Below, in pieces: positions 7,824 through 57,685 of a DNA stretch of 64,000 nt (position 1 is its first letter; each line of letters opens with the position of its first letter). The stretch comes from Aeromicrobium sp. (lineage in GTDB: Bacteria > Actinomycetota > Actinomycetes > Propionibacteriales > Nocardioidaceae), in contig JACMOZ010000374.1 in NCBI GenBank assembly GCA_014377785.1, positions 1 to 64,000 on the forward strand, read 5' to 3'. The notes under the pieces are model-generated. The model was given only the letters and a program-made list of their open reading frames with translations, ran no database searches and was not told where the DNA came from. Position numbers and translations under genes: made by a program.

Positions 7824-9427
<1,604 letters not shown>

Positions 9428-9558: not shown

Positions 9559-10045
<487 letters not shown>

Positions 10046-27605: not shown

Positions 27606-28439
27606 ATGACGGCCGTGAATAATCGACCTCAGGTACGACCGGAATCCACCAGTTGGGAGACGTTCTTGAGCGCATACCTTCCACCTCAACACGGCGCCTG
27701 GGCGTTCCTGGGTCTGCCGCTTGCCCTCGGTGCTGTCGTCACGCCATGGACACCTTTTCTCCTCGTGTTGGCGCTCGCGTGGGTGGCCGCCTACCCCTGG
27801 TCCTACGCCGCGTTGGGGTTGATCCGAGCCAAACGTCCACAGCGGTTCCGCCGTCCGTTCCTGGTATGGCTGGTGATCGTAGTTCCGGCCGTCGTCGTGC
27901 TCGTCTTAGCGCGACCCTGGTTGGTGTGGGTCGGCCTCGCGTACATGGCCCTGTTCGCGATCAACCTTCGCTACGCCAAGCGCAACGACGAGCGCGCCAT
28001 GGTCAACGAACTCGTGTTTGCCGCCGAGTGTTCGGCCATGGTCGTTGTCACCTGGTCGGTCGGCGCGGGAGGTCGGTCCTTGACCCCGCCGCAGTTCAGC
28101 ACCGTGCCGGACCAGGCATGGGTGCTGATGATCGTCTGCTTCCTGGTACTGGTCGGTTCGACTTTGCACGTGAAGTCTCTGGTCAGGGAGCGCCGGGACG
28201 CCCGATTCGCGCGGGCCTCCCGTGTGGCCGCTGTCGCTTCGATTGCCGTCGCGGTCGCGTTGGCCGCCTGGTGGGGATGGCCGGGCGGGGCTTGGCTCGT
28301 TGTTCCCTTCGTCGCCGCAGCGGTGCGGGCGTTCATTGTCAGGCGCCGGCCGTTGCGACCGGGATCGATTGGCTTGCTCGAGTTGGCTGGCTTCATATTG
28401 GTCGCTTTGGCTTCTGTGCTCGCCGCAGCATCGGCCTGA
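27606..28439 (+). CDS. YwiC-like family membrane protein
   Basis: LPPQHGAWAFLGLPLALGAV...YPWSYAALGLIRAKRPQRFRRPFLVW, polytopic; next to the NO reductase. Confidence 0.8.
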   Translation: MTAVNNRPQVRPESTSWETFLSAYLPPQHGAWAFLGLPLALGAVVTPWTPFLLVLALAWVAAYPWSYAALGLIRAKRPQRFRRPFLVWLVIVVPAVVVLVLARPWLVWVGLAYMALFAINLRYAKRNDERAMVNELVFAAECSAMVVVTWSVGAGGRSLTPPQFSTVPDQAWVLMIVCFLVLVGSTLHVKSLVRERRDARFARASRVAAVASIAVAVALAAWWGWPGGAWLVVPFVAAAVRAFIVRRRPLRPGSIGLLELAGFILVALASVLAAASA

Positions 28440-28467: not shown

Positions 28468-28481
28468 GGGACCTTTGGCCC
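28468..28481 (+). promoter_or_regulatory. DosR/DevR-box-like element upstream of the NO reductase
   Basis: GGGACCTTTGGCCC; the same 14-mer occurs on the minus strand at 35918-35931. Confidence 0.5.
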
Positions 28482-28645
28482 CTGCGCCAATCCTGGCGAC
28501 GGCCCATACTTGGCGACGTTGCCTTCACCGCCGAAGCCGTGGGGGAGAATCCCGGACGATTAATTGTCACGGTTTTTGCCTTACTTAATTCGCGATAGCC
28601 TGCGAAGGCACATGGCTCGCAGCCCTTACCCGGAAGAGGATTACC

Positions 28646-31054
28646 GTGGAACAGATCGCATCCAAGAATGGGCGCCAACGTTCAGAGTTGGAGGTCTCCA
28701 AGTTCTGGATCCAAGGCGCGGCCCTTGTGATGGCCATTGGCTTTGCCATCATGGGATTTCTGGCCTTGCGCACGTATACCGATGCGATGCCACAGCCTGA
28801 AAAGGTCGAGAATTCCCAGGGCGAGGTCGTCTTCACCAGCGCGGACATCACCTCGGGCCAGCAGATTTTCCTGCGCCGGGGCCTACAGCAGTACGGGTCC
28901 ATCATGGGGCACGGCGGATATCTCGGCCCGGACTTCACTGCCGACTACTTGCGTCGCTCCTCCGACTTCGTACTTGACGACCTGAAGAAGTCGGGCATCC
29001 AGGATCCGCAGGGTGCACTTGTCGACATGATGCGGACGAACCGCTATGACAAATCAACCGGCGTGCTGGAGTTCACACCCCAACAAACTGAAGCCTTCGG
29101 CTCCCTCGAAGGGCACTATGCGGCCTACTTCGGTGCACCGACCACAAAATATGGCCTGATCCCGAATGCAATTACCGACTCTGCCGATATTCACGATTTG
29201 ACCTCGTTCTTCGCGTGGACCGCCTGGGCGGCCTCGGCCGAGAGGCCGGGACACGACTACTCCTACACGAACAACTGGCCGGCCGAACCATTGGTGGACA
29301 ACGTCCCCACGGCGGACATCATCGTATGGAGTGCCCTCTCGCTAGTCATGCTGCTGGCCGCTACCGGCGTGCTGTTCGGACTTTATGGGCGTTGGAGCCA
29401 GAAAATGGGCTGGCAACACAGCGAGGAGGCGCCGGCACTGTCTTTCCGCCAGCCGGGAGAAGTCGAGGTGACACCCGCTCAAAGCGCCACCGCCTGGTTC
29501 TTCTTTGTCGTGGCAATCCTGTTCTTGGGTCAGGCCGTCCTGGGGGCGGCGATCGAGCACTATCGCGCCGAACTGTCGAGCTTCTTCGGCTTGGACCTTG
29601 CGCGGATACTGCCCTTCAACCTTGCCCGGACTTGGCACGTCCAACTGTCCTTGTTGTGGACGGCAGCCTCATTCCTGGCCGCCGGCATCTTCTTGGCCCC
29701 TTACATCTCCGGGCGTGAACCCAAACGGCAACACTGGCTCGCCTACGGGCTGCTCGGTGCCCTCGCCATTGTCATCGCCGGCTCCATGGTCGGTGAGGCA
29801 TTGAGCATCTTCGGTGTTGAAGCCGCCGAGGGATCGCCGTTTTGGGATCAGCAATGGGAGTATCTCGACTTGCCCAGGGTCTGGCAGACCCTTCTCGTCA
29901 TCGGCCTATTCTTGTGGATCACCATCATTTACCGCGGTATCCATGCTCGTCTGAAGACCGAGCACCGCTTCAACCTTCCGTGGCTTTTCTTTTACGCGGG
30001 TCTGGCAATCCCCGCGTTTTATGCCGTCGGCGAGCTCGCAGGCACTCAAACGCATCTAACTGTCGCCGAGTTCTGGCGATTCTGGGTAGTACACCTGTGG
30101 GTTGAGGACTTCCTCGAGCTGTTCACCACGGTGATGGTGGCCTACATCTTCGTCATGCTCGGTGTTGTTCACCGAAAGATCGCGATGCAGATCATCCTCC
30201 TGGATGTCATCTTGTACTCCCTTGGCGGCGTGGTCGGGACCATGCACCACCTGTACTTCTCCGGTACCCCGGTCGAGCACATGGCGCTGGGTGCGTTCTT
30301 CTCCGTACTGGAGGTCATCCCGCTGACATTCCTGACCATCGAGGCGTGGAGTTTCCTCCAGCTCGGTTCACGGCAGGAGTCACGCAGTTCCGCCCCCTTC
30401 CCGCACCGTTGGGCGGTGATGTTCTTAGTGGCAGTGGGATTCTGGAACTTCCTGGGCGCCGGCGTCTTCGGCTTCCTTATCAACTTGCCGATCATCTCCT
30501 ATTACGAGATCGGCACAGCCTTAACGGCCAACCACGCCCACGCGGCCATGATGGGCGTATACGGGATGTTGGGCGTGGGACTTGCGCTGTTCGCTTTGCG
30601 CTATCTCATCCCTGCCGAACGCTGGCCAGACAAGCTCGCCAAGTTGTCTTTCTGGTCGCTCAACATCGGCCTCGCCTGGATGACATTCGCCACACTTCTT
30701 CCGCTGGGAGTCATTCAGTTGTGGCACTCCATCAACGACAGTTACTACGAAGCCCGCACACTGGCGTTCATCACCCAGCCTGGCAACGCCATCCTGGAGT
30801 GGCTGCGGATGCCGGGGGACATTATCTTCATCGGCGGCGGCGTGCTTCCATTCCTATGGATCACCTGGCTCGGGGTGCGTTATCGCATCAAGGGAACCAC
30901 GTATGAGGTTCCGATCGAGTCGCTGTTCGTCGAGGTGCAGCCCGTGGCCACAGCCGGCGGGGACGCAGCGAAGCCGGCCGCCACTTACGGCTCTGACGAC
31001 CGCCGCGGCGACGAGCCTGAGGACGACGAAGGTCGCCCGAACGGGGGCACATGA
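28646..31054 (+). CDS. norZ: Quinol-dependent nitric oxide reductase large subunit (qNOR)
   Basis: 802 aa; N-terminal TSADITSGQQIFLRRGLQQYGSIMGHGGYLGPDFTADYL, heme-copper oxidase-type core with HLWVEDFLELFTTVMVAYIF and NHAHAAMMGVYGMLG; GTG start. Confidence 0.92.
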   Translation: MEQIASKNGRQRSELEVSKFWIQGAALVMAIGFAIMGFLALRTYTDAMPQPEKVENSQGEVVFTSADITSGQQIFLRRGLQQYGSIMGHGGYLGPDFTADYLRRSSDFVLDDLKKSGIQDPQGALVDMMRTNRYDKSTGVLEFTPQQTEAFGSLEGHYAAYFGAPTTKYGLIPNAITDSADIHDLTSFFAWTAWAASAERPGHDYSYTNNWPAEPLVDNVPTADIIVWSALSLVMLLAATGVLFGLYGRWSQKMGWQHSEEAPALSFRQPGEVEVTPAQSATAWFFFVVAILFLGQAVLGAAIEHYRAELSSFFGLDLARILPFNLARTWHVQLSLLWTAASFLAAGIFLAPYISGREPKRQHWLAYGLLGALAIVIAGSMVGEALSIFGVEAAEGSPFWDQQWEYLDLPRVWQTLLVIGLFLWITIIYRGIHARLKTEHRFNLPWLFFYAGLAIPAFYAVGELAGTQTHLTVAEFWRFWVVHLWVEDFLELFTTVMVAYIFVMLGVVHRKIAMQIILLDVILYSLGGVVGTMHHLYFSGTPVEHMALGAFFSVLEVIPLTFLTIEAWSFLQLGSRQESRSSAPFPHRWAVMFLVAVGFWNFLGAGVFGFLINLPIISYYEIGTALTANHAHAAMMGVYGMLGVGLALFALRYLIPAERWPDKLAKLSFWSLNIGLAWMTFATLLPLGVIQLWHSINDSYYEARTLAFITQPGNAILEWLRMPGDIIFIGGGVLPFLWITWLGVRYRIKGTTYEVPIESLFVEVQPVATAGGDAAKPAATYGSDDRRGDEPEDDEGRPNGGT

Positions 31055-31743
31055 TGGCTCAGATCGACCCGTCGGTCTGGTTCGCTGTTGGCTACGGGGT
31101 CTTCCTTCTGTGTGTCGCGCACGTGCTGGACCTCTTGGCTCGCAGAACCGCAACGCACACGAACGACTGGCGCTCGGGCGGCTTCGTCTACCACGAAAAT
31201 CACGACGCATGGGTGTGTCCGGAAGATCAGTGGTTGTGGCCGATTTCCTTCGATCCGGACAACCGGGTGATGCGTTACCGCGCCAAACCCACGGTGTGCA
31301 ATGCCTGCCCGGTCAAGGAAACCTGCACCACTTCCGATAACGGTCGCCAAGTCGGTCGCAACATCGACCCCTGGCCTAACTCGGAGGCCGAGCGGTTCCA
31401 TCGAGGTATCGCTTGTGCTGTGGTGATCCTCGGGCTCATCTGGCCCCTTGCCGCGATGCTCCAAGGCCGCACGCCGCTCGAACTGGCGGTGTTGGGTATG
31501 GGTGCCGCTCTCGTTGCCTTCGGCAGTTGGCCATTGTGGTCCCATTTACGACGCACCCCGGCCAGGTTCCCCGACCATGTCAAGATCGAGGGGCTCGATG
31601 AGACTGTCGAGGCACAGTTGGTCGCGACGGCGAGTGCGGCGGAGCGTCAGACAATTTACGGCAGCGCCCGGCGTGCCGACTTCGGACAAGACTTTACGAA
31701 TGGACAGCCGGTGCCCGACACGAGCAGGAGGAAGAAGAGATGA
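31051..31743 (+). CDS. Hypothetical membrane protein with Cys cluster
   Basis: YRAKPTVCNACPVKETCTTSDNGRQVGRNIDPW plus N-terminal TM and two internal TMs; overlaps norZ stop. Confidence 0.7.
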   Translation: MMAQIDPSVWFAVGYGVFLLCVAHVLDLLARRTATHTNDWRSGGFVYHENHDAWVCPEDQWLWPISFDPDNRVMRYRAKPTVCNACPVKETCTTSDNGRQVGRNIDPWPNSEAERFHRGIACAVVILGLIWPLAAMLQGRTPLELAVLGMGAALVAFGSWPLWSHLRRTPARFPDHVKIEGLDETVEAQLVATASAAERQTIYGSARRADFGQDFTNGQPVPDTSRRKKR

Positions 31744-32501
31744 CAGCGTGGCAAGTCGTGGTCCTCATTATTGTGGTCATAGCCCTCGTAGAGTTGGCAG
31801 CATCAGGAAAGGTCCTCAGGGAGTACGAACGGGGCGTGGCTTTTCGGCTCGGCCATTTGCGCCCCGTCCTCCAACCCGGTGTCCACATGATCTTTCCCGG
31901 CCTGGACAAGATGGTGCGGGTGGACCTGCGAATCGTGACGCTGACGATCCCGCCGCAGGATGTCATCACCAAGGACAACGTCCCCGCCCGAGTCAACGCC
32001 GTCGTCCTTTTCCAGGTCACTGACCCTATTCACTCCGTCATGGCGGTCGAGAACCATGCCGTCGCCACTTCCCAGATGGCTCAAACCACCCTGCGCTCAG
32101 TCGTAGGCCGCGCCGATCTGGACACACTGCTGGCGCATCGGGCCGACCTCAACGAGGATCTCGCCCAGAGCATCAACGCACAGACCGAGCCATGGGGCGT
32201 ACAAGTAAAAGTGGTGGAGATCAAAGACGTCGAGATTCCCCAGGCGATGCAGCGGGCCATGGCACGCGAGGCCGAAGCCGAACGGGACAGGCGGGCCAAG
32301 ATCATCAACGCCCACGGCGAACTGCAGGCTTCAGAGGAGCTCGGCCAGGCAGCCGAAATCCTCAGCCGTAATCCGGCTTCGCTCCAGTTGCGCTATTTGC
32401 AAACCCTGCTCGAGCTGGGTGCGGACCAGAACTCCACTGTCGTCTTCCCGCTGCCGATGGACATCATCGGCCCGTTCCTCAAAAAGGTTGCTAATGACTG
32501 A
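31740..32501 (+). CDS. SPFH/stomatin-like protein (slipin)
   Basis: VLREYERGVAFRLGHLRPVLQPGVHMIFPGLDKMVRVDLRIVTLTIPPQDVITKDNVPARVNAVVLFQV. Confidence 0.92.
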   Translation: MTAWQVVVLIIVVIALVELAASGKVLREYERGVAFRLGHLRPVLQPGVHMIFPGLDKMVRVDLRIVTLTIPPQDVITKDNVPARVNAVVLFQVTDPIHSVMAVENHAVATSQMAQTTLRSVVGRADLDTLLAHRADLNEDLAQSINAQTEPWGVQVKVVEIKDVEIPQAMQRAMAREAEAERDRRAKIINAHGELQASEELGQAAEILSRNPASLQLRYLQTLLELGADQNSTVVFPLPMDIIGPFLKKVAND

Positions 32502-32733
32502 CACTTCACTGCCCCCAGGAGCTGCCGCGATAATCTTCGGCGGCGCTGTAGCCCTTTTCGCCCCCCTCACCGGTTTCCTCGGCGGCACCATCGTGGGATC
32601 CACCGATCGCGCCGGTGAACTTGACCCGTTGTTCCTGTGGCTCTTCGTCGGCATGATCGTCGGCGGTATCGGCGGGGTCATAGCCATCTTGGGTGCGCTG
32701 CGCTGGAACCGTGCGAACCACGACTCTCACTGA
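32494..32733 (+). CDS. Small two-TM membrane protein
   Basis: MTDTSLPPGAAAIIFGGAVALFAPLTGFLGG...FLWLFVGMIVGGIGGVIAILGALRW; overlaps slipin 3' end. Confidence 0.65.
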   Translation: MTDTSLPPGAAAIIFGGAVALFAPLTGFLGGTIVGSTDRAGELDPLFLWLFVGMIVGGIGGVIAILGALRWNRANHDSH

Positions 32734-32746
32734 AAATAGGTATGCC

Positions 32747-33907
32747 ATGACAGTTGTCCATGCGCCCCCCGTACGTCTCATGCACCACGACGCAGCCGAG
32801 CGGCCCTTTATAGTCATCTGGGAAGTCACGCGCGCCTGCCAGCTCGTATGCACGCATTGTCGAGCCGACGCCATCCGTAGCCGTAACCCATTCGAGCTCA
32901 CCACGGACGAGGGCCGGCGGCTCCTGGACGACCTCGCGTCATTCGGTGCTCCACGCCCGTTGGTAGTACTTACCGGCGGCGACCCGTTCGAGCGACCTGA
33001 CCTGCCCGAGCTGGTCGCGCACGGCACCAAACTTGGCTTGAGCATGGCCCTTTCGCCCTCCGTGACCGATCGCCTCACACGCGAGGTCCTGGTCGAGTTG
33101 CACGACGCCGGGGCCAAGGCAATCTCGCTGTCCCTGGACGGGGCCTCTGCGCAAACCCACGACTCCTTCCGCGGCGTCGACGGAGTCTTTGATGCCACGA
33201 TGGAGGCCGCACGCATGGTTCGCGAGGTGGGTTACCGCCTCCAGATCAACACCACAGTCACCAGAAACACCGTGCACGAGCTCCCCGAGATCCTGAAGAC
33301 CGTGCTCGAGCTCGGCACCACGCTGTGGAGCGTGTTTTTCCTTGTCCCGACTGGTCGGGGCAAACTTCTGGAGCCTCTTACAGCTGCCGAGGAAGAGGAA
33401 GTTCTGCACTGGCTGCATGACGTCTCGGCGCTCGTCGCGATCAAGGCGACCGAGGCGCCCCACTATCGGCGAATCGCCATCCAGCGTGCTGGCGTGGATG
33501 AGGATTCACTCGACGACGTGTTTCCTGTCGGGCCGCTCCGCGCGGAGTTGCGACACAACACCGAGGAACTGCTCAGCGGTCACGAGCCGAGGCGGCGTCA
33601 CCCGCGGGCACCGATCGACGTCAACTCAGGTCGCGGCTTTGCCTTCGTCGACCACGTGGGGATGGTCTATCCCAGCGGATTCCTGCCCGTATCTGTGGGC
33701 CCGGTGCGCGATCAGTCGTTCCCTGAGATCTACCGTGATTCCCTGTTATTGCAGGAACTGCGTGACCCGGACGCCTTTGGCGGCAGGTGCGGACAATGTG
33801 AGTTCAGAACCGTTTGTGGAGGCTCGCGCTCGCATGCCTATGCCACCAGCGGCGACCCTCTGGCCGAGGACCCAAGCTGCCTTTACCAACCCGTCGTTTC
33901 GGCCTGA
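32747..33907 (+). CDS. Radical SAM/SPASM domain protein
   Basis: WEVTRACQLVCTHCRADA (CxxxCxxC) and C-terminal CGQCEFRTVCGGSRSHAYATSGDPLAEDPSC; resembles the TIGR04053 / heme-modifying radical SAM group. Confidence 0.88.
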   Translation: MTVVHAPPVRLMHHDAAERPFIVIWEVTRACQLVCTHCRADAIRSRNPFELTTDEGRRLLDDLASFGAPRPLVVLTGGDPFERPDLPELVAHGTKLGLSMALSPSVTDRLTREVLVELHDAGAKAISLSLDGASAQTHDSFRGVDGVFDATMEAARMVREVGYRLQINTTVTRNTVHELPEILKTVLELGTTLWSVFFLVPTGRGKLLEPLTAAEEEEVLHWLHDVSALVAIKATEAPHYRRIAIQRAGVDEDSLDDVFPVGPLRAELRHNTEELLSGHEPRRRHPRAPIDVNSGRGFAFVDHVGMVYPSGFLPVSVGPVRDQSFPEIYRDSLLLQELRDPDAFGGRCGQCEFRTVCGGSRSHAYATSGDPLAEDPSCLYQPVVSA

Positions 33908-33913
33908 TACTTA

Positions 33914-34300
33914 GATCTTCGCGTTGATGGACTGCAAGCCTGAGTCCTCGCGGGTGCCGCCGATGTCGCCGCCCGATAGTCCGCGATCCACTCGCGGACG
34001 ATGGGGTGTCCGTTGACGCCAGCTTTGCTGGTGTTTCCGCGACGGTCGAGATCGCGCGTCTGCGCGGCGGCGTAGAGCATCGCGACCTTCTTACTCACAG
34101 CCGCGACCTCACCTGGAACACGGGGACCGCAGAGCGGGCAAGAAGGCCGTAGGTACAGGACAGGTCGGCGATCGCCGACTGAGCCTTGGGTGCCGATCAT
34201 GGCGGTGCGCCAAGTGCCGGTGGCGAGCTCGACTGTAGTGCTCGGCGTCACCCGCGTGCACCGACCGACGATCGACGTCGACTCGGGCCGCGGGTTCGCC
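33914..34300. pseudogene. Duplication scar with fragments of the molybdoenzyme 3' end and the radical SAM gene
   Basis: 33914-33994 resembles 34311-34398; 34243-34300 resembles 33594-33643. Confidence 0.75.
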
Positions 34301-34307
34301 GTGATGC

Positions 34308-35843
34308 TCAGATCTTCGCGTTGATGGATTGCAGGCCCGAGTCCTCGCGGGTGCCGCCCATGCCGTCACCCTCGGTCCGATAGTCCTCGATCCACTCGAT
34401 CTTGTGCAGGTACTTGACCATTTTGTAGCCGTGGATGGATTCGACCCGGAGGCGCAACGGCGCACCAAAGGTCAGTGGCAACGGCTTGTCGTTCATGTCG
34501 AACGCGAGGATCGTCTCGTCCTCGTACACCAACTCTTTGGGCAGGCAGGTGTAGTACGGCTCGAGCGGGCGACCGTCATACATGTGCTGTGCCGTGCCGT
34601 AGGAGGTCAGCATCAGAAAGTTGGCGTTTTCGTTGGGTTTAACCAAGGCCAGCACGTCGGAGAGCCGGACGCCGCCCCACTTGGCGATGCCGGTGAAGCC
34701 CTGCATACAGGTGTGCATCGTGATCTGTTCTTGGCGTTGCATGTCGCGCAGGTCGTCCAGCGTCAGTTTGATGGTCTTATTCGTCAGTCCGCCAACCTCG
34801 AGCTCATAACCCTGCCAGTCGTTCTCCCGCAGCGCCTCCCATTCGGGGGATTCCTCAGGGGTCGGATGCCTGCCGTTGGACCAGTGGTAGGGGGAAATGT
34901 CCTCCTCCTTGTAGAAGCCCCGCTGCTTCGACTTCAAACGGTTCACGAACAGTGCACGGATCGGCTCTTCGAGCGTGTTCAGCACGATCTGCGTGCGACG
35001 CAGATCCTTGTGACTCCAGTAGGACTGCCAGAGCCAGAAGGCGATGACCGCGGCGATCATTGTCAGCATGATCACCAGGCCCGCGGCGAACCTCTCCGGC
35101 AGGTATTCACCGAACACCATGTTGGTGACGTTGTGCTGCGGGTAGGCGATGAAAACCAGCGACACATGGAAGACCACGAAGACCAGGTAGATTGCCATTC
35201 CGAGGAAGTGCAGGCTTCGCGCCGATTGGCGGTTTCCGAAGAGCTTGGCGTACCAAGGGAATCGACCGACGACAGCCGGCGACATCGCGATCCCGGTAAG
35301 GATCATCATCGGTGCCACGACGAAGACGATGAATGCGTACATCAGCTGCTGCAGTGCGTCGTACGGCTGGAAGCTCTCCACCGGCGGCAGGTTGGACGAC
35401 AGGTAGGTGGGCATCGACTCCAAAGCCTGGGGAAAGACGTCCCAACTGGTCGGCACGAGACGGCGCCACTGGCCGGTCCCGAAGAGCAGAACGACGTAGA
35501 TCAGACCATTGACCATCCACAGGAAGTTGGTTACGCCGTGCCAGCGACGCCCTAGGCCGATCTTCTTGCCGCCGGGCAGCGAGAACCATTTGGGGAGCAC
35601 GAGCTCGTCGTCGCGCGCCATGTACTCCCCCTCCTTTGTGGGGACGACGCTCTTGGTGAAGTGGATCCACTCGGTCCCGGGGCCGCAGTTGTTGTTCCAA
35701 TACAGCCGCGGGTGTGACGACAGAATCTCGATCCCGCTGCGAATGAGGACTCCGATGAACACGAAGTTGATGAAATGGGTTATCCGCAACCAGGCCGGGA
35801 AGCCGAGATCACCGGATGCGGTAGCAGTTATGAACGTGTTCAT
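34308..35843 (-). CDS. Cytochrome b561-like membrane domain fused to sulfite-oxidase-fold molybdopterin oxidoreductase domain
   Basis: N-term polytopic with His residues (RITHFINFVF, GRRWHGVTNFLWMV, RSLHFLGMAIYLVFVVFHV); C-term MHTCMQGFTGIAKWGGVRLSDVLALV...LPLTFGAPLRLRVESIHGYKMVKYLHKIEWIEDY. Start uncertain (35843, 35882, or TTG at 35924). Confidence 0.85.
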   Translation of the reverse strand: MNTFITATASGDLGFPAWLRITHFINFVFIGVLIRSGIEILSSHPRLYWNNNCGPGTEWIHFTKSVVPTKEGEYMARDDELVLPKWFSLPGGKKIGLGRRWHGVTNFLWMVNGLIYVVLLFGTGQWRRLVPTSWDVFPQALESMPTYLSSNLPPVESFQPYDALQQLMYAFIVFVVAPMMILTGIAMSPAVVGRFPWYAKLFGNRQSARSLHFLGMAIYLVFVVFHVSLVFIAYPQHNVTNMVFGEYLPERFAAGLVIMLTMIAAVIAFWLWQSYWSHKDLRRTQIVLNTLEEPIRALFVNRLKSKQRGFYKEEDISPYHWSNGRHPTPEESPEWEALRENDWQGYELEVGGLTNKTIKLTLDDLRDMQRQEQITMHTCMQGFTGIAKWGGVRLSDVLALVKPNENANFLMLTSYGTAQHMYDGRPLEPYYTCLPKELVYEDETILAFDMNDKPLPLTFGAPLRLRVESIHGYKMVKYLHKIEWIEDYRTEGDGMGGTREDSGLQSINAKI

Positions 35844-35917
35844 GTCTCGTTTGTTGCCTCTCCGCTGACGTTCTGGGAACATCCACCACGCTATGAAGCG
35901 GAGCCCTTCCCGGGTCA

Positions 35918-35931
35918 GGGCCAAAGGTCCC
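35918..35931 (-). promoter_or_regulatory. DosR/DevR-box-like element upstream of the molybdoenzyme
   Basis: Minus strand TTCGGGACCTTTGGCCCTGA; 14-mer core identical to 28468-28481. Confidence 0.5.
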
Positions 35932-36011
35932 GAAGGCCTGAGGGGTATATCACATAGAACTGCCTCATGGCGTCGACGTCCAGCTCGTCCGGAACTGCAA
36001 AAGGGCGATGA

Positions 36012-36527
36012 CTAGATGAAGAGCATCTGAGCGCCGTCCGTCATCTCGATGAAGTCGCTGGCGCTGATGATGTCCTCGACCTCGTCGTAAAGGTCATCCT
36101 TGGTGAGGCGATTCATGTCGGCCGACATCCGGCACGCCCAAAGGTGTCCGCCTGAAGCGACAATCTGCTCGAGGAACTCTGGGACTTCCGGGACGTCGAG
36201 GGCGGCAATGGACTTTTTCAGCTTTGCCGTGGCCATTGCCGTCATACCGGGAAGCCCACCCAGGCCCTGTGGCATGTGGGTCGCGGGGTTGCCGAGCATG
36301 GTGAACTTCATGTCTCCCATGGTTTTTTTGTTGATCATGTCGAAACCCCAGAAGGTGAAGAACAGGTGGGTCTCGATGCCCTCGCCGAGGGCGGCGTTGG
36401 CCATGATCAATCCGGGGTAGGCCATGTCCAAACTGCCCTTTGAGCAAATGATGGCCAGTTTGCGCCCGTCGGGAGTTTCGCTGTCGAATTTAGGGACGAT
36501 GGCTGGGGTGGTGTCTGTAGCGTTCAT
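36012..36527 (-). CDS. DsrE-family protein
   Basis: KLAIICSKGSLDMAYPGLIMANAALGEGIETHLFFTFWGFDMINK...GGHLWACRMSADM. Confidence 0.88.
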   Translation of the reverse strand: MNATDTTPAIVPKFDSETPDGRKLAIICSKGSLDMAYPGLIMANAALGEGIETHLFFTFWGFDMINKKTMGDMKFTMLGNPATHMPQGLGGLPGMTAMATAKLKKSIAALDVPEVPEFLEQIVASGGHLWACRMSADMNRLTKDDLYDEVEDIISASDFIEMTDGAQMLFI

Positions 36528-36555
36528 GTCGATTTCTCCATTCGTGATTGGTGGG

Positions 36556-36870
36556 TCAGACGCAGCCTTGCGGTTTGGGAAGGCCGGCGATGTAGGCCAT
36601 CTTCTTGGCAGGCTTCTGCGGGAACAAGGCGAACAGTTGTTTGACCCCGATGCCGCCGACGTTGGAAATACGGCGAAGGGTCGCAGTTTCGCCCTTCTCC
36701 TCGAAGTCCTTGCGCAGGAACCGGATCGCGTTCCAGTGCTCTTCGGTGAGGGTGATGCCGATCTGGGTCGCTAGGACCGTCGCGAGGGCGTCGTCCCATT
36801 CGGTGGGGTCGGTCAGGAAGCCTTCATCGTTGACGTGGATCTCGTGGCCGCCAAGCGTGGTTACGGGCAT
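36556..36870 (-). CDS. DsrC/TusE-family sulfur relay protein
   Basis: EGFLTDPTEWDDALATVLATQIGITLTEEHWNAIRFLRKDFEEKGETATLRRISNVGGIGVKQLFALFPQKPAKKMAYIAGLPKPQGCV. Confidence 0.92.
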   Translation of the reverse strand: MPVTTLGGHEIHVNDEGFLTDPTEWDDALATVLATQIGITLTEEHWNAIRFLRKDFEEKGETATLRRISNVGGIGVKQLFALFPQKPAKKMAYIAGLPKPQGCV

Positions 36871-36883
36871 GGCATTGTCTCCT

Positions 36884-38131
36884 TCACTTAGTAGAGGTCG
36901 GTTCGGTGGTCTTGCCCACCATGGACATGTGGGTCGTCACCGGCATTGGGCGGCCGGGAAGCATGATGTTCCAGTAGATCCAGCGGAACGCGAGCTTGCC
37001 GAGGTGGTTGGCCCGGGTCTCCTTCAGCAGGTCCATCGGTCCGAGCAACGGAAGCGGGTATTTACCCGTCAGCGGTTCGGTGTCGTAGTTGAAGTCGATG
37101 AGCAAGCCCTTGCCGTTGCCGGACTCGATGAAGCAGTTGGTGTGGCCGTCGAAGGAGCCGGTCATCGGCTTGCCAGCGATGAGCTGGCAGAAGTTGTCGA
37201 CGAAGATTTCTACCGAGAAGTGCGCGACCGAACCGGCCTTGGATGCCGGGATGTTGGAGGCGTCTCCTACCGCGAAGATATTCGGGTAGGCGTGGGACTG
37301 AAGAGTGTGCTTGTCGACGGCGACATAGTTGAGTTCGTCGCCCAGCCCGGAGCGGGCCACGAAGTCGGCGCCCATGTTCAGCGGAACGGTGACCAAGAGG
37401 TCGAACGGCACCTCGCGCTCGTCGTAGGAAACCAGCAACTTGTTGTCGACGTCTATCCGCTCGACCATGAAGTCTGACTCCACGGCGATCTTGCGTTCGT
37501 CGAGCATGGACCCCAGGTGCGCCGAGGCGATCGGCTTGGTGAAAGCACCGGGCAACGGCGTCACGTAGACCATTTCCACGCGTTCGCGCAGGCCCCGCTC
37601 GCGCAACCAGGCGTCGACCAAGAAGGTGAACTCCAGTGGCGCAACCGGGCATTTGATCGGCATATCGGTGATGTGCACGACCAAACGGCCGTGATCGAAG
37701 TCCTGCAGTGCCGTGGCCAGCGCCTTGGCTCCTTCGAAGGTGTAGAAGTCGAAGATGCTGCGGCGCCACTCCGTCTCGAGCATGCCCGGGGTCTGGTCCG
37801 GCCGGGGTGTGGTGCCGGAGGCGATGACCAGGTAGTCATAGTCCAGGCTTTGGCCATCGATCAGGGCCACCGTATTCGTGTTGGCATCGATGCGATCGAC
37901 CTCGCCGATCACGAAGTGAACTCCGTCGGGGAGGGAGGCGTCGCGCGGCCGGGTGATCTGGTCCGGTGAGTAGACGCCGAACGGTATGAACAAGTAACCG
38001 GGCTGATAGGGGTGCACATTGTCACGGTCCACGATGGTGATGTCCCACTCACCGTCGTCGAGGCGGCGCCGCAGTTTGTTGACTATCATTGTGCCGGCTG
38101 TCCCTGCACCCAACACCAGTAACTTCTTCAC
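36884..38131 (-). CDS. sqr: Sulfide:quinone oxidoreductase-like FAD-dependent oxidoreductase
   Basis: LVLGAGTAGTMIVNKL, NVHPYQPGYLFIPFG, DYLVIASGTTPRPDQTPGM, KCPVAPLEFTFLVD, NIFAVGDASNIPASKAGSVAHF. Confidence 0.88.
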   Translation of the reverse strand: MKKLLVLGAGTAGTMIVNKLRRRLDDGEWDITIVDRDNVHPYQPGYLFIPFGVYSPDQITRPRDASLPDGVHFVIGEVDRIDANTNTVALIDGQSLDYDYLVIASGTTPRPDQTPGMLETEWRRSIFDFYTFEGAKALATALQDFDHGRLVVHITDMPIKCPVAPLEFTFLVDAWLRERGLRERVEMVYVTPLPGAFTKPIASAHLGSMLDERKIAVESDFMVERIDVDNKLLVSYDEREVPFDLLVTVPLNMGADFVARSGLGDELNYVAVDKHTLQSHAYPNIFAVGDASNIPASKAGSVAHFSVEIFVDNFCQLIAGKPMTGSFDGHTNCFIESGNGKGLLIDFNYDTEPLTGKYPLPLLGPMDLLKETRANHLGKLAFRWIYWNIMLPGRPMPVTTHMSMVGKTTEPTSTK

Positions 38132-38207
38132 GGCTGACTCCTCGCCTCGTGTGCTGGCATTCCTTGCTTACTCATCACGTTACGAGCGAGTCGTATGTCG
38201 GCACAGT

Positions 38208-38220
38208 GCCGAAAGTCCCC
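38208..38220 (-). promoter_or_regulatory. Candidate DosR-like box upstream of sqr
   Basis: Minus strand GGGGACTTTCGGC, about 77-89 nt upstream of the sqr ATG. Confidence 0.4.
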
Positions 38221-38237
38221 ATGCAGGGGGCGTTATG

Positions 38238-39953
38238 TCACCTTTCGCCGTCGGCCAGACAGGCAGGGGGCAGGTCGAACCAGCGCAAGTGTTCGAAGTC
38301 CGCCGACACTAAGTCGATGAAGGACTCACCGGACGCAGGGGTGGCCGCCGCGAACACGGTCTTGGCCTCCTCGAGGTAGTGCTGGAGATCGGACTCCGGC
38401 GCGCGGTCATGGTCGCTCGGGTGCCGCATGCGCCCCTGCTCGTCATACGTCACCTGTTTCAGGCGCAGCGAAGGTTCCACGGGCCCATGACGGTGTCGCC
38501 ACAGGCCCGTAGCCGGGTCGAATCGGTAGTCGCCGAGCAGGCGCCACCCGTCCCTCGCCACGAGCTGTACGGCCTCGAGGATGTAGGAGAAGACCGTCTC
38601 GGAGATGAAGTAGTTGAAATTCACCCGGACCCAGCCCGGCTTGATGCCCTCGCAACCGTGGGCAATCTCGCGATCGAATTCGTGGGACCGGTCCGGATTG
38701 ATACCCAGCAGCCGGTGCCCGTAAGGACCCGCGCACGAGCAGCCACCGCGGGACTGGATCCCGAACAAGTCATTGAGCAGGGAGACGACGAAGTTGTGGT
38801 GCAGATAGCGCCCGCTGGGCGCGCGCACGACGAACGAGACGATCGACAGCCGCTCCGCCTCGAGGTTGCCAAGGATCTCGATGGATGGCTCCTGCAACCA
38901 GGCGCTGACGGCGCGCCGTAGGTAGTCCTCCTCGTGGGAGCGGATCACGTCGACCCCCACGGCCTGCTTGAGCTGGAACACAAGCCCGGCGCGGATCGCC
39001 TCGACGATGGCCGGAGTGCCGCCCTCCTCGCGCTGGGCCGGGTCGTCGAGATAGCGATGCTCGGTCGGGTTGACGTAGGCAACGGTGCCACCGCCCGGGA
39101 TGTCGGGCACGCGGTTGCGCAGCAACTCGCGTCGGACGACCAGGACCCCTGGGGTACTGGGGCCGCCGATCAGCTTGTGGGGGCTGAGGAACAAAGCGTC
39201 CTTGTAGGACAACGGGTCGCGTTCCGGTCCGCCGTACATCTCGATGTCGACATAAGGGGCGGCCGCAGCGAAGTCCCAGAAGGACAACGCGCCATGACGA
39301 TGCAGGAGGGCTGATATCTCGTGAGTGCTGCTGACGATTCCCGTGACATTGCTGGCGGCTGAGAACGAGCCGATGCGCAGCGGTCGGGCTGCGTACCGCA
39401 ACAGTTCTCTCTCGAGCTGCGCGGCGTCGATGTGACCGTCGGTGTCTTGGGGGATCACCACGACGTCGGCGACCGACTCGCGCCACGGCAGCTCGTTCGA
39501 ATGGTGCTCGAAAGGCCCGATGAACACCACGGGTCGCTCTTCGGAGGCTATGTGGTCGCTGAGGTGGTAGGTGTCGTCCAGGATCGAGGGGATGCGCAGA
39601 CCAAGGACGCCGACCAGCTTGTCTATTGCACCGGTGCATCCCGACCCGGCGAAGATGACCACGGTGTCGTCGTCTCCACCGACCGCATCGCGGATGATCC
39701 GGCGCGCGTCCTCACGTAGCCGGGTGGTCTGCAAGCCGGTGCCACTGGACTCGGTGTGGGTGTTGGCATAGCGGGGCAGCACCTCATCCCGGATGAAGTC
39801 CTCGATGAAGGTCAGTGCCCGTCCCGATGCGGTGTAGTCGGCGTAGGTCACGCGCCGTGGTCCATAGGGTCCGGGCATCACCTGGTCGTCGCCGATGACG
39901 GACTGGCGGACCCTGGCCAGCAGTGGGCTCTGGATCGGTTCAATGACGTCCAT
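38238..39953 (-). CDS. PLP-dependent class V aminotransferase / cysteine-desulfurase-like protein
   Basis: 571 aa; PLP-Lys motif LSPHKLIGGPSTPGVLV, Cys motif IQSRGGCSCAGPYGHRLLGI. Confidence 0.87.
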   Translation of the reverse strand: MDVIEPIQSPLLARVRQSVIGDDQVMPGPYGPRRVTYADYTASGRALTFIEDFIRDEVLPRYANTHTESSGTGLQTTRLREDARRIIRDAVGGDDDTVVIFAGSGCTGAIDKLVGVLGLRIPSILDDTYHLSDHIASEERPVVFIGPFEHHSNELPWRESVADVVVIPQDTDGHIDAAQLERELLRYAARPLRIGSFSAASNVTGIVSSTHEISALLHRHGALSFWDFAAAAPYVDIEMYGGPERDPLSYKDALFLSPHKLIGGPSTPGVLVVRRELLRNRVPDIPGGGTVAYVNPTEHRYLDDPAQREEGGTPAIVEAIRAGLVFQLKQAVGVDVIRSHEEDYLRRAVSAWLQEPSIEILGNLEAERLSIVSFVVRAPSGRYLHHNFVVSLLNDLFGIQSRGGCSCAGPYGHRLLGINPDRSHEFDREIAHGCEGIKPGWVRVNFNYFISETVFSYILEAVQLVARDGWRLLGDYRFDPATGLWRHRHGPVEPSLRLKQVTYDEQGRMRHPSDHDRAPESDLQHYLEEAKTVFAAATPASGESFIDLVSADFEHLRWFDLPPACLADGER

Positions 39954-40014
39954 TGATCGAGCCTATAAGCGGGGGGTCACCAACAGAAGGGGACAAAGGC
40001 CCGCAACTGACAAA

Positions 40015-40030
40015 ATACCCCCTAGGGTAT
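40015..40030. promoter_or_regulatory. CsoR/CstR-type operator-like palindrome
   Basis: ATACCC-CCTA-GGGTAT inverted repeat upstream of the SufS-like gene and of plus-strand ORFs. Confidence 0.5.
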
Positions 40031-40279
40031 GCTGGTTGCATCTATCAGAGCGCGGACGGTCGTGGGTGCCCGGTACCTCGGCGAGGCCGGGCGTCGCCCG
40101 ATCGAGGAGCCAATCATGAGCAGCAGAGTCACTACTGGGACGAGCCGGAGCGCCGCCCGAGCGTCGCGATGCGCTGCTGGCCATCGCCTTCCACGGCACA
40201 GCGCACAACACGCTGACGACGACACCCGAGCTCTCGATCACCTTGGCGGACGCTGCGAGCCAGAAACCCCAGAGGACGC

Positions 40280-40693
40280 GTGAGCGCGATGCTTCGATCG
40301 ACCTTGGCGAACTGGCCACACCGACGCCGAGTAGCGGTACTCATGTTGACGCCGGTGATGGCCGCGATCTTCGTAGCCGTCTCCGGGACGCCCGTCGATC
40401 ACGTCTCCGCTGTGTGGCTCCTGTTCGTCGCCGTCGCCGCGACGGTGGCAGCGGCCGTGCTGGGAAGCTACGTTCCGCGCAATGGCCTTCGCCCGGACGT
40501 GGGTTGTACACCGTGCGCCGCGATGTCTGCCATGACTGTGGTCGGAGCGATGATGGCATTGAACAACTTCGGCTCCATGCTCATCGGGCCTGCCCTCGCG
40601 ATCGCCGTCACCCTGTTCGGCTTCGCCCAAAGGCTTGACCAGACCGAGACCTGCAGCGTGCCCGCGCGCCCGAATTTGCCTGATGGGGACTGA
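40280..40693 (+). CDS. Hypothetical membrane protein with GCTPCAAM motif
   Basis: 137 aa, about 4 hydrophobic segments: VAVLMLTPVMAAIFVAV, VWLLFVAVAATVAAAVLG, MTVVGAMMALNNFGSMLIGPALAIAVTLFGFA. Confidence 0.6.
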   Translation: MSAMLRSTLANWPHRRRVAVLMLTPVMAAIFVAVSGTPVDHVSAVWLLFVAVAATVAAAVLGSYVPRNGLRPDVGCTPCAAMSAMTVVGAMMALNNFGSMLIGPALAIAVTLFGFAQRLDQTETCSVPARPNLPDGD

Positions 40694-40761
40694 CTGCCAC
40701 AACATCCACCACACTGAGGCTGGCATGACGACTACCTTGTCGTACCGGAAGTAGACCGACC

Positions 40762-40950
40762 TCAGCAGCAGCGGGACTGCGGGTTGTTCTCCTTGTGCTC
40801 GGCCCGGTGCCATTCGAAGTCCCGGCGTGACACCGGCTCGACTTTCTTGCTTCGGCAGTGGTCGAGGTACTCATCCCATTTGGCCTCGCCACTCGCCTGC
40901 TTGAGGTACCAGAAGATTCCGCGCCCGGCCCTGACAATGGCGGTCCTCAT
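40762..40950 (-). CDS. YbdD/YjiX (DUF466) family small protein
   Basis: FWYLKQASGEAKWDEYLDHCRSKKVEPVSRRDFEWHRAEHKENNPQSRCC; 4-nt overlap with cstA. Confidence 0.88.
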   Translation of the reverse strand: MRTAIVRAGRGIFWYLKQASGEAKWDEYLDHCRSKKVEPVSRRDFEWHRAEHKENNPQSRCC

Positions 40951-43133
40951 CGCCGTCGACTCGAACCGGCCGACTCGCGCTGGCGGGCTTCGTACTCGCG
41001 CACCGCCACCTTCTCGTCGGCGGTAGCGAAGAAGTCCGACGGAGCGACGATGTCTGAGGTCACATGCGGGACCTCGGTGGTCGGGAGCCCGCCGGCCTTC
41101 GCGGCCTTGATCCAGACAGGGATGGCGCTGATGACAACGATGATGGTGAGCGATGCGAAAATGAGTTGCAGGCTACCGTTGACCGTCGAGTTTGTGATGA
41201 TCTGCTGCATCTGGTCCGAATTCGTCGCGGGCGCCAGCAGGTCGCCCTGGTCGAGCGCTGACTGGTAGTTCGACCGCTGCTCGAAGTAGCCGATCTTCGG
41301 ATTGGCGGAGAACACCTTTTGCCAGCTCGCCGTCATCGTGGCGATCAGGTCCCAGGCCAGAGCGATGCCAGGCACCCAGGCCCACTTGGCCTTGCCGTGC
41401 TTGAACATCAGGGTTACGCACAACGTCAAGGCGATTGCCGCGAGTAACTGGTTGGAAATTCCGAAAAGCGGGAACAACTGGTTGATACCGCCGAGTGGGT
41501 CGGTCACGCCTACATACAGCATGTAACCCCACAGCCCGACAACCACGGCGCTGGCAGACCAAGAGGCCGGCTTCCAGGAAATGTCGCCGTACTTGGGCCA
41601 GAAGTTGCCGATCGTGTCCTGCAACATGAAGCGGCCGACTCGGGTTCCGGCATCAACTGCGGTGAGGATGAACAGCGCCTCGAACATGATGGTGAAGTGG
41701 TACCAGAAGGCGGCGAGGCCTCCGCCGAACGCCTCGGTAAAGATCATCGACATGCCGAAGGCGAGGGTGGGCGCGCCGCCGGTGCGCGAGATCAGGGTTT
41801 CTTCCTGGACGGACCGCGCCGCTGCGGCGAGGTCGCCCGGGCTGATCGAGAAGCCGAGCGTTCGGATGAACTCCGCGGCGGCACCAGGCTCCCCACCCGT
41901 GGCGCCGCCGGGGCTGTTGATCGCGAAGTAGAGCCCCTGGTCGATGACGGAGGCGGCGATCAGGGCGCTGATGGCCACGAAGGACTCCATCAACATGCCC
42001 CCGTAGCCGATCATCCGGACCTGACTTTCCTTGGCGATCATCTTGGGGGTGGTGCCTGAGGCGATAAGCGCGTGGAACCCCGACAGGGCACCGCAGGCGA
42101 TCGTGATGAACACGAAGGGGAACAGCTTTCCGGCGAACACGGGTCCGTTGCCCTCGATCGCGAAGTCCGTGATTGCCTCGTTCTGGAGTACCGGAGCGGC
42201 GATGATCAGGCCGATCGCGAGGAGCGCGATGACGCCGATCTTCATGAATGTGGACAGGTAGTCACGCGGGGTCAGCAGCATCCATACCGGAAGGATCGAG
42301 GCGACGAACCCGTAGACGATGAGACTGATGACCAGCTTCTCCGGGGACAGCGTCAGCGTGTCGGCCAGACCCATTTGTTCGACATAGCCGCCGCCGATGA
42401 TCGCAAACAGCAGCAGAGTGACACCAATCGCGGTGACCTCCATGACGCGACCCGGCCGCAAATAGCGCAGATAGAAACCCATGAACAGCGCAATCGGGAT
42501 AGTCAGTCCGATCGAGAAGACGCCCCAGGGTGACGCGGCGAGCGCGTTGACCACGACGAGGGCCAACACCGCCAAGATGATGATCATGATGGCGAAGACC
42601 GCGATCAGCGCGGCAATGCCGCCGACAGTGCCGATCTCCTCGCGCACCACTTGGCCGAGGCTCTTGCCGCCGCGACGCATGGAGAAGAACAACACCACCA
42701 GGTCCTGGACCGCGCCGGCGAAAATGACGCCGACAATGATCCAGATCGTGCCCGGCAGGTAACCCATCTGCGCGGCCAAGACCGGACCGACGAGTGGACC
42801 GGCGCCGGCGATAGCGGCGAAGTGGTGCCCGAACAGCACGCGCCGGTCGGTGACATCGAAATCGGTGCCGTTCTCAAGGCGTTCGGCGGGCGTGGCACGG
42901 GTGTCGTCGACACCTAATACCCGGTAGGCGATGAACCTGGAGTAGAACCGATACGCGATGGCGTAGGACGAGAGTGCGGCGAACAGGATCCACAGTGCGG
43001 AAACATCTTCGCCCCGGGACAGGGCCAGCACCGCCCAACAGACCGCGCCGACAACGGCGACGGCCCCCCAGACAAGCATGGATCTGGGCGTCATTTTTGG
43101 CGCGGATTGGTTTGTGGACGTGACTGTAGCCAT
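40947..43133 (-). CDS. cstA: Carbon starvation protein A family transporter
   Basis: RVLFGHHFAAIAGAGPLVGPVLAAQMGYLPGTIWIIVGVIFAGAVQDLVVLFFSMRRGGKSLGQ; ATG at 43133 preferred over 43277. Confidence 0.95.
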   Translation of the reverse strand: MATVTSTNQSAPKMTPRSMLVWGAVAVVGAVCWAVLALSRGEDVSALWILFAALSSYAIAYRFYSRFIAYRVLGVDDTRATPAERLENGTDFDVTDRRVLFGHHFAAIAGAGPLVGPVLAAQMGYLPGTIWIIVGVIFAGAVQDLVVLFFSMRRGGKSLGQVVREEIGTVGGIAALIAVFAIMIIILAVLALVVVNALAASPWGVFSIGLTIPIALFMGFYLRYLRPGRVMEVTAIGVTLLLFAIIGGGYVEQMGLADTLTLSPEKLVISLIVYGFVASILPVWMLLTPRDYLSTFMKIGVIALLAIGLIIAAPVLQNEAITDFAIEGNGPVFAGKLFPFVFITIACGALSGFHALIASGTTPKMIAKESQVRMIGYGGMLMESFVAISALIAASVIDQGLYFAINSPGGATGGEPGAAAEFIRTLGFSISPGDLAAAARSVQEETLISRTGGAPTLAFGMSMIFTEAFGGGLAAFWYHFTIMFEALFILTAVDAGTRVGRFMLQDTIGNFWPKYGDISWKPASWSASAVVVGLWGYMLYVGVTDPLGGINQLFPLFGISNQLLAAIALTLCVTLMFKHGKAKWAWVPGIALAWDLIATMTASWQKVFSANPKIGYFEQRSNYQSALDQGDLLAPATNSDQMQQIITNSTVNGSLQLIFASLTIIVVISAIPVWIKAAKAGGLPTTEVPHVTSDIVAPSDFFATADEKVAVREYEARQRESAGSSRRR

Positions 43134-43289
43134 GAAACTTCCCCGGAGTCTTGTTGTGAACGTGAACGTGATCGGGATCATACGCCTGGCTGTCCACAGG
43201 CCGGCTTCCTGTTCAGGTTCTCCACAGCGCAGGAATGAGGACTCGACGGAAAACCCGTGCCGCGCCACCGTGGTCATGGAGGTGCTCGT

Positions 43290-57022: not shown

Positions 57023-57685
57023 TTAGATCAACCCGGCGTCGTGCACGCAGATGGCGACCTGGACGCGGTTGGTGGCACTGAGTTTCGTGAAGATGTGTGA
57101 AATATGTGCCTTCACGGTGGCGACGCTCATATGCAGGTCGGTGGCGACTTCGGCATTGGAGGCGCCGCGCCCGACCGCGATGGCGACTTCCCGTTCGCGT
57201 TCGGTCAGTTGCTCGATATTGCGGCGAGCTGTCTCGACACGATCGTTCGGCGCTCCGTCGGTGACCTGGCGGATGAGTTGTTCGGTGACAGTCGGCGACA
57301 GCATCGGTTCGCCCTCGTGGACCTTGATGACAGCGGCCACGATGTCGGCCGGAGGCGTGTCCTTCAACAGAAATCCGCTCGCGCCATTGGCCAGCGCCCT
57401 CACCACGAAGTCATCGGCATCAAAAGTCGTCAGCACTATGACCTTGGGCGGATCGGCCATGCCGGCAATGGCCAAGGTCGCGGCAATGCCATCCATGACC
57501 GGCATCCGGATGTCCATGAGCACGACGTCGACCTGCTCAGATGCGACCCGGTCAACAGCCTCGCGACCGTTCGCCGCTTCGCCGATCACCTCGATGCCAT
57601 CCGAACCGCCGAGGATCAGCGCGAGACCGGCACGGACCAGGGGATCGTCGTCGGTGATCAGCAGGTGAATCGTCATGCCAGCCAC
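57023..57685 (-). CDS. NarL/FixJ-type response regulator
   Basis: LLITDDDPLVRAGLALIL...DVVLMDIRMPVMDG; C-term LTEREREVAIAVGRGASNAEVATDLHMSVATVKAHISHIFTKL. Confidence 0.95.
   Translation of the reverse strand: MAGMTIHLLITDDDPLVRAGLALILGGSDGIEVIGEAANGREAVDRVASEQVDVVLMDIRMPVMDGIAATLAIAGMADPPKVIVLTTFDADDFVVRALANGASGFLLKDTPPADIVAAVIKVHEGEPMLSPTVTEQLIRQVTDGAPNDRVETARRNIEQLTEREREVAIAVGRGASNAEVATDLHMSVATVKAHISHIFTKLSATNRVQVAICVHDAGLI

Follow-up and report, generated by a model that had tools for sequence, protein, structure and literature searches.

Gene content of the island and its candidate regulatory boxes

The window, the entire 64-kb stretch of Aeromicrobium sp. DNA analyzed here, carries a gene island predicted to act in the joint removal of nitric oxide and hydrogen sulfide. 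A forward-strand norZ operon is followed by reverse-strand genes for a cytochrome b/sulfite-oxidase-fold molybdoenzyme, a sulfide:quinone reductase (SQR) operon, and a SufS-like enzyme. The first-pass annotation had described the norZ operon and the molybdoenzyme gene as divergent, when in fact they are convergent. The features are as follows, where each -10 element is a prediction and each score refers to the matrix described below.

28468..28481, + strand: DosR-type box 1, GGGACCTTTGGCCC, norZ promoter (score 16.3)
28505..28510, + strand: predicted -10 CATACT, 23 nt past box 1
28646..31054, + strand: norZ-like quinol-type nitric oxide reductase, 802 aa (PF22085, E=2e-53; PF00115, E=1.3e-51)
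31051..31743, + strand: 230-aa norZ-operon protein with a Cys-rich segment like part of IS1182 transposases
31740..32501, + strand: norZ-operon SPFH/Band 7 protein (PF01145, E=1.1e-39)
32494..32733, + strand: norZ-operon small predicted membrane protein, read from sequence
32747..33907, + strand: TIGR04053 radical SAM/SPASM protein (520.5 bits, cut-off 395)
34308..35843, - strand: fusion of cytochrome b561 and sulfite-oxidase-fold molybdoenzyme domains, 511 aa (PF01292, PF00174)
35888..35893, - strand: predicted -10 TAGCGT, 24 nt past box 2
35918..35931, - strand: DosR-type box 2, GGGACCTTTGGCCC, promoter of the cytochrome b/sulfite-oxidase-fold gene (score 18.2)
36012..36527, - strand: DsrE2-like sulfur-carrier protein (PF13686, E=1.3e-28)
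36556..36870, - strand: DsrC/TusE-like sulfur-relay protein (PF04358, E=1.6e-31)
36884..38131, - strand: type III SQR (NF049943, 635 bits, cut-off 525)
38177..38182, - strand: predicted -10 TAACGT, 23 nt past box 3
38206..38219, - strand: DosR-type box 3, GGGACTTTCGGCAC, SQR-operon promoter (score 16.8; footprinted in other genomes)
38238..39953, - strand: SufS-like class V aminotransferase, a cysteine desulfurase relative, 571 aa (PF00266, E=7.5e-36)
39960..39965, - strand: predicted -10 TAGGCT, 24 nt past box 4
39990..40003, - strand: weaker DosR-type box 4, CGGGCCTTTGTCCC, upstream of the SufS-like gene (positional match in L074)

The TIGR04053 protein is a relative of haem b/d1 maturases. 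In the norZ relative L187, a protein similar in length to the 230-aa norZ-operon protein comes after norZ.

Occurrence of the repeated 14-mer

The two exact copies of GGGACCTTTGGCCC reported in the first-pass annotation were confirmed in both position and strand, and no other exact copy was found in the 5,016,813-base assembly. Three copies with a single mismatch were found in the genome, all outside predicted genes and shortly 5' of a start codon. The exact repeat had been taken as a pointer to one regulator. With 248 repeated 14-mers in the window, repetition by itself is weak evidence for this, yet the element proved real. Besides a 15-bp tandem repeat at 22393, it is the only repeated 14-mer of the window with both copies intergenic. 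The 20-mer TTCGGGACCTTTGGCCCTGA at 35915-35934 (- strand), which had been quoted as close to the DosR box, matches TTSGGGACTWWAGTCCCSAA at 15 of 20 positions, and the norZ site does so at 13 of 20. Both sites stand, while their number was underestimated, as at least four boxes are present, with further ones before the SQR and SufS-like genes. Matches to TTSGGGACTWWAGTCCCSAA ranged from 13 to 15 of 20 overall; within the core, boxes 1-3 agree at 11 of 14 positions and box 4 at 10 of 14, and the right half-site of the island boxes is relaxed relative to a palindromic GGGAC..GTCCC-type core.

Box scoring and promoter geometry

A scoring matrix was trained solely on SQR promoters from 19 other genomes, with 438 kb of control sequence from the Aeromicrobium genome and pattern searches across that whole genome as background. 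Within the 64-kb window, boxes 2, 3, and 1 ranked first, second, and third, respectively, all of them intergenic, and box 4 scored poorly. The control DNA contained no match at or above 16 and just two intergenic matches at or above 12; the equal frequency in coding or control DNA that had been named as evidence against the element was thus not observed. A loose palindrome, GGGNCYWWNGNCCC, was dropped in favor of the matrix, as it showed no genome-wide enrichment (21 vs 26 control matches). At the cut-off applied, the literal M. tuberculosis consensus did not recover the norZ site.

A -10-like hexamer was predicted 23-24 nt downstream of all four island boxes and of most SQR boxes in relatives. 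Among 31 promoters, [TC]ANNNT occurred 17 times at offset 23 and six times at offset 24, and at most twice at any other offset. Judged from sequence, this distance is the one expected for an activator site adjoining the -35 region, and the boxes are predicted to lie beside or overlapping the -35, upstream of the predicted -10, as is characteristic of DosR boxes. The possibility that the 14-mer lies 3' of its promoters, raised in the first-pass annotation, is at odds with the predicted -10 elements, each of which follows its box in the direction of transcription. The combination of box and -10 geometry gave eight matches in 5 Mb, which included norZ, the sulfite-oxidase-fold gene, and SQR. Additionally, the predicted -10 of box 2 shares a TAGCGTGGTGGAT string with the SQR promoters of relatives L073 and L074.

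A DosR orthologue and a DosS/DosT-type kinase

The first-pass annotation, in which DosR was an inference, had suggested looking for a DosR/DevR homologue and for sites at universal stress protein (usp) genes, and both were found. The orthologue is encoded outside the window on contig C152 and shares 59% identity with M. tuberculosis DosR over 209 aa, compared with 38% for the closest paralogue in the genome. It has receiver and LuxR domains, its best PDB match is DevR 3c3w (E=2.8e-73), and its recognition helix KTVKN conserves the equivalents of the DNA-contact residues K179, K182, and N183. Close to dosR lies a gene for a DosS/DosT-type kinase with tandem GAF, HisKA_3, and HATPase domains, whose best PDB matches are the GAF-A (E=7.7e-43) and ATPase domains of DosT/DevS. 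The alignment indicated that GAF-A keeps the HPPM motif, the histidine of which serves as haem ligand; the kinase is a putative haem b-binding gas sensor. Further boxes were found before dosR, dosS/usp, cydA, a second usp, and a Zn-ADH gene.

The assembly has a contamination of 7.25%; the tetranucleotide usage of the dosRS contig agrees with that of the window (r=0.93), and the nirK contig C37 is a borderline case for native DNA (r=0.64). Contigs C202 and C396 also contain box-like sites, and were excluded for their foreign tetranucleotide usage (r of about 0.4).

Conservation in other genomes

The SQR box was footprinted, being conserved before SQR, in other actinobacteria. DosR was present in all 21 genomes with an SQR box and in six of the 14 without one (Fisher p=1.3e-4), and many distant DosR-positive actinobacteria had no SQR box. 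The norZ box was not footprinted in the same way, because three norZ relatives of the same class were compared and two of them (L187 and L188) showed no box; in the third, L189, box-like elements lie between usp and norZ. Homologues of the cytochrome b/sulfite-oxidase-fold family (39-61% identity) occurred in other gene contexts where the box was absent.

Comparison with known systems

The island boxes share the imperfect palindrome GGGAC-N4-GNCCC with the M. tuberculosis DosR/DevR box, while their right half-site is relaxed to GNCNCT. Also shared with the M. tuberculosis DosRST system are a DosR with conserved DNA-contact residues, a DosS/DosT-type kinase, and boxes before dosR, dosS/usp, and further usp genes. 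In contrast, the predicted regulon here extends to SQR-DsrC-DsrE2, norZ, the Moco enzyme, and cydA. No report of SQR in the M. tuberculosis DosR regulon was found in the open-access literature searched, where one H2S paper mentions both DosR and SQR, and none was found there linking DosR to DsrE or denitrification. SQR-DsrC-DsrE2 and NO reduction appear, from their promoters, to be new members of a DosR regulon.

Outside mycobacteria, two reports describe OsdKR (DevSR) of S. coelicolor as including a functional DevR orthologue (PMC5069765, PMC4766573). In the former, OsdR bound in vitro (EMSA) the SCO5978/SCO5979 region, which holds CGGGACCTTCGGCCCT, a site one central base apart from the window 14-mer (PMC5069765). 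The Streptomyces consensus, given as AGGGCCGATCGGCCCT, differs from the window box. OsdKR is linked to NO, and its targets in the passages considered comprise usp, Zn-alcohol dehydrogenase, osdR, and nitrate reductase genes, with no sulfide oxidation, norZ, or nirK genes (PMC5069765, PMC4766573). In Bacillus licheniformis, the two-component system NreBC, with a regulator of LuxR/NarL type, activates SQR genes (sqr-pdo) upon exposure to sulfide, while it differs in its PAS-type kinase, its occurrence in Firmicutes, and its DNA site, and is not DosR (PMC9918477).

Alternative explanations

A coincidental repeat, or a shared mobile-element end, could in principle explain why the 14-mer has two exact copies in the window, as might be expected from the number of repeated 14-mers in the window and from a 3-mismatch count near expectation (12 vs 8.2). 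It was rejected as a very improbable explanation, since a matrix built from other genomes singled out the same sites, which also carry the -10 geometry and phylogenetic conservation, and since no other non-tandem repeated 14-mer had both copies intergenic. The rigid spacing to a -10-like hexamer would also suit a promoter signature read by an alternative (ECF) sigma factor; GGGAC would then be the -35 element and the 14-mer would not be an activator site. However, the hexamer lies 23-24 nt from the 14-mer and 32-33 nt from GGGAC, which exceeds the usual -35/-10 spacing of 16-19 nt, and both halves of the imperfect palindrome are conserved, making this origin only slightly less remote than chance.

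Operators that are real and serve another NarL/LuxR-family response regulator represent a somewhat stronger, though still unlikely, alternative. The genome encodes about ten DosR-related response regulators, the window itself contains a response regulator/kinase pair (57023-58830), and sqr is under a NarL-family regulator in B. licheniformis (PMC9918477). Nevertheless, the window regulator is VraR/NarL-like, with VraR as its best PDB match and 28% identity to DosR, and all other response regulators are at or below 38%. Moreover, the same box precedes dosR and other classical DosR targets, and its presence across genomes tracks that of DosR.

The 14-mer is best read as an operator core recognized by DosR (DevR/OsdR), of which the island has at least four copies, with a DosS/DosT to DosR~P pathway jointly inducing NO and sulfide genes (probability of roughly 0.87). 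This assignment is supported because a DosR orthologue and a DosS/DosT-type kinase are present, boxes lie at dosR, usp, and cydA, the footprinted SQR box co-occurs with DosR, and OsdR binds a region with a near-identical site.

Proposed mechanism and implications

Under the DosR reading, low oxygen, NO, and possibly H2S would be sensed by a haem-GAF kinase of DosS/DosT type, which would then phosphorylate DosR. DosR~P would bind the imperfect palindrome, placed roughly between -49 and -36 and beside the -35 region, and bring RNA polymerase to a TANNNT-like -10 that follows after 23-24 nt. The norZ operon (NO reduction), the cytochrome b-coupled molybdoenzyme, SQR-DsrC-DsrE2 (sulfide oxidation and sulfur relay), and the SufS-like enzyme would be induced together, along with dosR, dosS, usp, and cydA. 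DosR itself is inferred here as the protein bound at these sites, activating rather than repressing, and homology of the kinase to DosS suggests NO or hypoxia as the inducing signal.

Most studies of DosR concern its role as a dormancy switch in the tuberculosis bacillus. It is conceivable, albeit less probable than the operator assignment and tentative, that in many environmental actinobacteria its regulon is, beyond a program for dormancy or hypoxia, also a gas-detoxification circuit, where DosS senses NO and H2S and DosR induces the enzymes that handle both. NorZ, with NirK, might then act on NO and nitrite, and SQR-DsrC-DsrE2, sulfur-relay, and Moco enzymes on sulfide. M. tuberculosis DosS is reported to sense H2S (PMC9062744). 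If such a circuit exists, it would place the sensor DosS under negative feedback, and sulfide oxidation and NO reduction in a non-pathogenic DosR regulon would give the reported H2S and NO sensing by DosS a physiological purpose. The promoter class, defined by the core and a -10 at 23-24 nt and readily testable, would in that case be useful for annotating such regulons across Actinomycetota.

Predicted DosR-type boxes in the island

The first-pass annotation was right about the element itself and its assignment to DosR; the count of sites, the regulator, the promoter geometry and the connection to sulfide oxidation are added here. The claimed exact 14-mer, GGGACCTTTGGCCC, was confirmed in the window at both 28468-28481(+) and 35918-35931(-), and the 5.02-Mb assembly contained no other exact copy. 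Three further genomic copies carried one mismatch, all intergenic and 16-92 bp 5' of a predicted start codon. Since 248 distinct 14-mers are repeated in the window, bare repetition of GGGACCTTTGGCCC is weak evidence; a 15-bp tandem repeat excepted, it was the sole repeated 14-mer with both copies intergenic. The two units, described earlier as divergent, are actually convergent, being transcribed toward each other. Two additional promoter-positioned box-like matches were found (boxes 3 and 4).

27606-28439, plus strand: YwiC-like gene, leftmost of the island
28468-28481, plus strand: box 1, 5' of norZ
Plus strand, in order after the YwiC-like gene: norZ-type NO reductase, 230-aa protein, SPFH protein, small membrane protein, TIGR04053 radical SAM
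Minus strand, left to right: cytochrome b561/sulfite-oxidase-fold gene (SO), sulfide:quinone reductase (SQR)-DsrC-DsrE2 group, SufS-like gene
35918-35931, minus strand: box 2, 5' of SO
38206-38219, minus strand: box 3, 5' of SQR
39990-40003, minus strand: box 4, 5' of the SufS-like gene

Footprinting included SQR relatives from named genomes (36 actinobacterial and 42 non-actinobacterial loci), where a box was called if the best-matching site no more than 250 bp 5' of SQR agreed with GGGACYWWNGNCCC at 12 or more of its 14 positions. Such a match was present in 21 of the 36 actinobacterial loci (13/14 in 11 of those 21), mostly 63-132 bp 5' of the start, and in four of the 42 non-actinobacterial loci at 12/14 and none at 13/14.

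A 22-bp matrix was derived from 19 relatives' SQR promoters, with the Aeromicrobium genome's own sequence excluded. Its best three positions in the window were all intergenic: 35914(-), 38202(-) and 28464(+), scoring 18.2, 16.8 and 16.3, respectively. In first-order Markov copies of the window (n=30), the best score had a mean of 13.9 and a maximum of 19.2. The 438 kb of other DNA covered from the same genome contained no site of at least 16, and just two intergenic sites of at least 12. Box 4 scored below 6, and is accepted as a probable DosR-type site because the SufS relative in Phycicoccus sp. KJC.3 (locus L074) has GGGTCCTTGGTCCC 32 bp 5' of the gene, followed by alignable downstream sequence.

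Among 31 box-aligned promoters (window, dosRS contig, nirK, alcohol dehydrogenase, and relatives), [TC]ANNNT occurred at offset 23 in 17 and at offset 24 in six, with at most two per offset elsewhere. The chance value for these offsets, 1e-29, assumes prechosen offsets and independent promoters and is thus indicative only. From this spacing, the 14-mer is predicted to lie at about -49 to -36. A whole-genome search for the box with the predicted -10 spacing returned eight matches versus five in the control; three of the eight were norZ, SO and SQR, all inside 10 kb.

Several side observations concern the island. In the 230-aa norZ-operon protein (31051-31743), a Cys-rich segment resembles a portion of IS1182 transposases, with a sub-threshold match to NF033551 (E=4e-11); a protein of similar length also follows norZ in a relative (L187). 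The 3' ends of the radical SAM and SO genes recur as degenerate direct repeats of 83-93% identity (33593-33643 and 33891-33974 versus 34243-34300 and 34288-34371), which are partial-duplication remnants between these convergent genes. Third-position GC of the minus-strand genes (34308-43277) was 0.80-0.85 versus about 0.70-0.79 in most of the window, consistent with acquisition.

The probable regulator and its association with the box

The DosR homologue called for earlier was identified by a genome search with M. tuberculosis DosR at C152:43583-44212(-), on a separate contig of the assembly, with 59% identity; the second-best LuxR-type regulator had 38%. The dosRS locus (L030) encodes:

L030:11584-12225, minus strand: DosR orthologue, 209 residues aligned to M. 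tuberculosis DosR
L030:9374-11134, plus strand: GAF-GAF-HisKA_3-HATPase kinase, GAF-A nearest DosT/DevS

The orthologue keeps the K179, K182 and N183 equivalents and the RRTQAAVFAT helix, and its top PDB match was DevR (3c3w). Matrix scores on C152 were 13.7 at dosR, 12.6 between dosS and usp, 12.0 at cydA and 20.0 at a second usp; in the 38 kb adjoining the locus, matches were coding only and at most 11.7. The assembly has 7.25% contamination, which is unlikely to account for the link between the window and dosRS, as tetranucleotide usage of the window and C152 correlated at r=0.93 (shorter loci from other genera gave 0.59-0.65).

Arginine-deiminase-like pathway genes, with enzyme names from sequence reading, and an amino-acid permease (L030:3071-7723) adjoin the dosRS/usp/cyd locus. 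Within the window, 57023-58830 encodes a response regulator and a HisKA_3 kinase; the regulator was rejected as DosR, being of NarL/VraR type. Tandem near-identical P-II (GlnB/GlnK-like) genes occur at 9083-9427 and 9707-10045.

A DosR orthologue was present in all 21 box-positive genomes and absent in eight of the 14 box-negative actinobacterial genomes searched (Fisher p=1.3e-4, with kinship ignored and box status partly set after inspection, as in L087, whose box is at a greater upstream distance). Phycicoccus offers an instructive contrast: both box and DosR occurred in L074, L080 and L101, neither in P. sonneratiae (L097) and P. endophyticus (L098), and DosR without the SQR box in L100. 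In a second, phylum-wide set, clear forward-strand boxes in G312, G503, G338 and G434, and a weaker one in G212, were all accompanied by DosR; G336, G325, G444, G369 and G244 had neither. Many DosR-positive genomes of this set had no SQR box, so the association is common in nearer relatives and not universal.

Reach of the candidate regulon

In PMC5069765, S. coelicolor OsdR is described as a functional DevR orthologue, with a predicted site at SCO5979 (CGGGACCTTCGGCCCT) and in vitro binding of the SCO5978/5979 fragment; PMC4766573 connects NO and nitrate reductase with S. coelicolor DevS/DevR. H2S is bound by M. tuberculosis DosS, which induces the regulon (PMC9062744). Bacillus licheniformis sqr is activated by NreBC (PMC9918477). 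No report of DosR control of SQR-DsrC-DsrE2 or norZ was found in open-access literature. Activation by DosR at the island boxes, and which gas induces, are what we infer.

Boxes also occurred beyond the island. A copper nitrite reductase gene on contig C37 (TIGR02376, 316.8 bits versus a cut-off of 296.3) has AGGACCTTTGGCCC 92 bp upstream, then CATGAT at offset 24. In G481, of another family, an exact GGGACCTTTGGCCC and a second box precede a nirK relative (L213 579-622), and the DosR of that genome has 57% identity. A box-bearing Zn-alcohol dehydrogenase gene of the Aeromicrobium genome, with similar box-bearing genes in L089 and L091, echoes S. coelicolor SCO0199. The SQR operons of L094 and L091 are surrounded by usp, GAPDH-like and DosS-like genes that themselves have boxes, and Phycicoccus sp. 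KJC.3 has a TusA-FlpD-DsrE2 group (L074:2098-3547) with the near-perfect box AATAGGGACCTTTGGCCCTAGA.

Among the SQR relatives, genes of family f25 in L070, L071 and L072 contain a single in-frame TGA in open frames, which fits the selenoprotein form of type III SQR.
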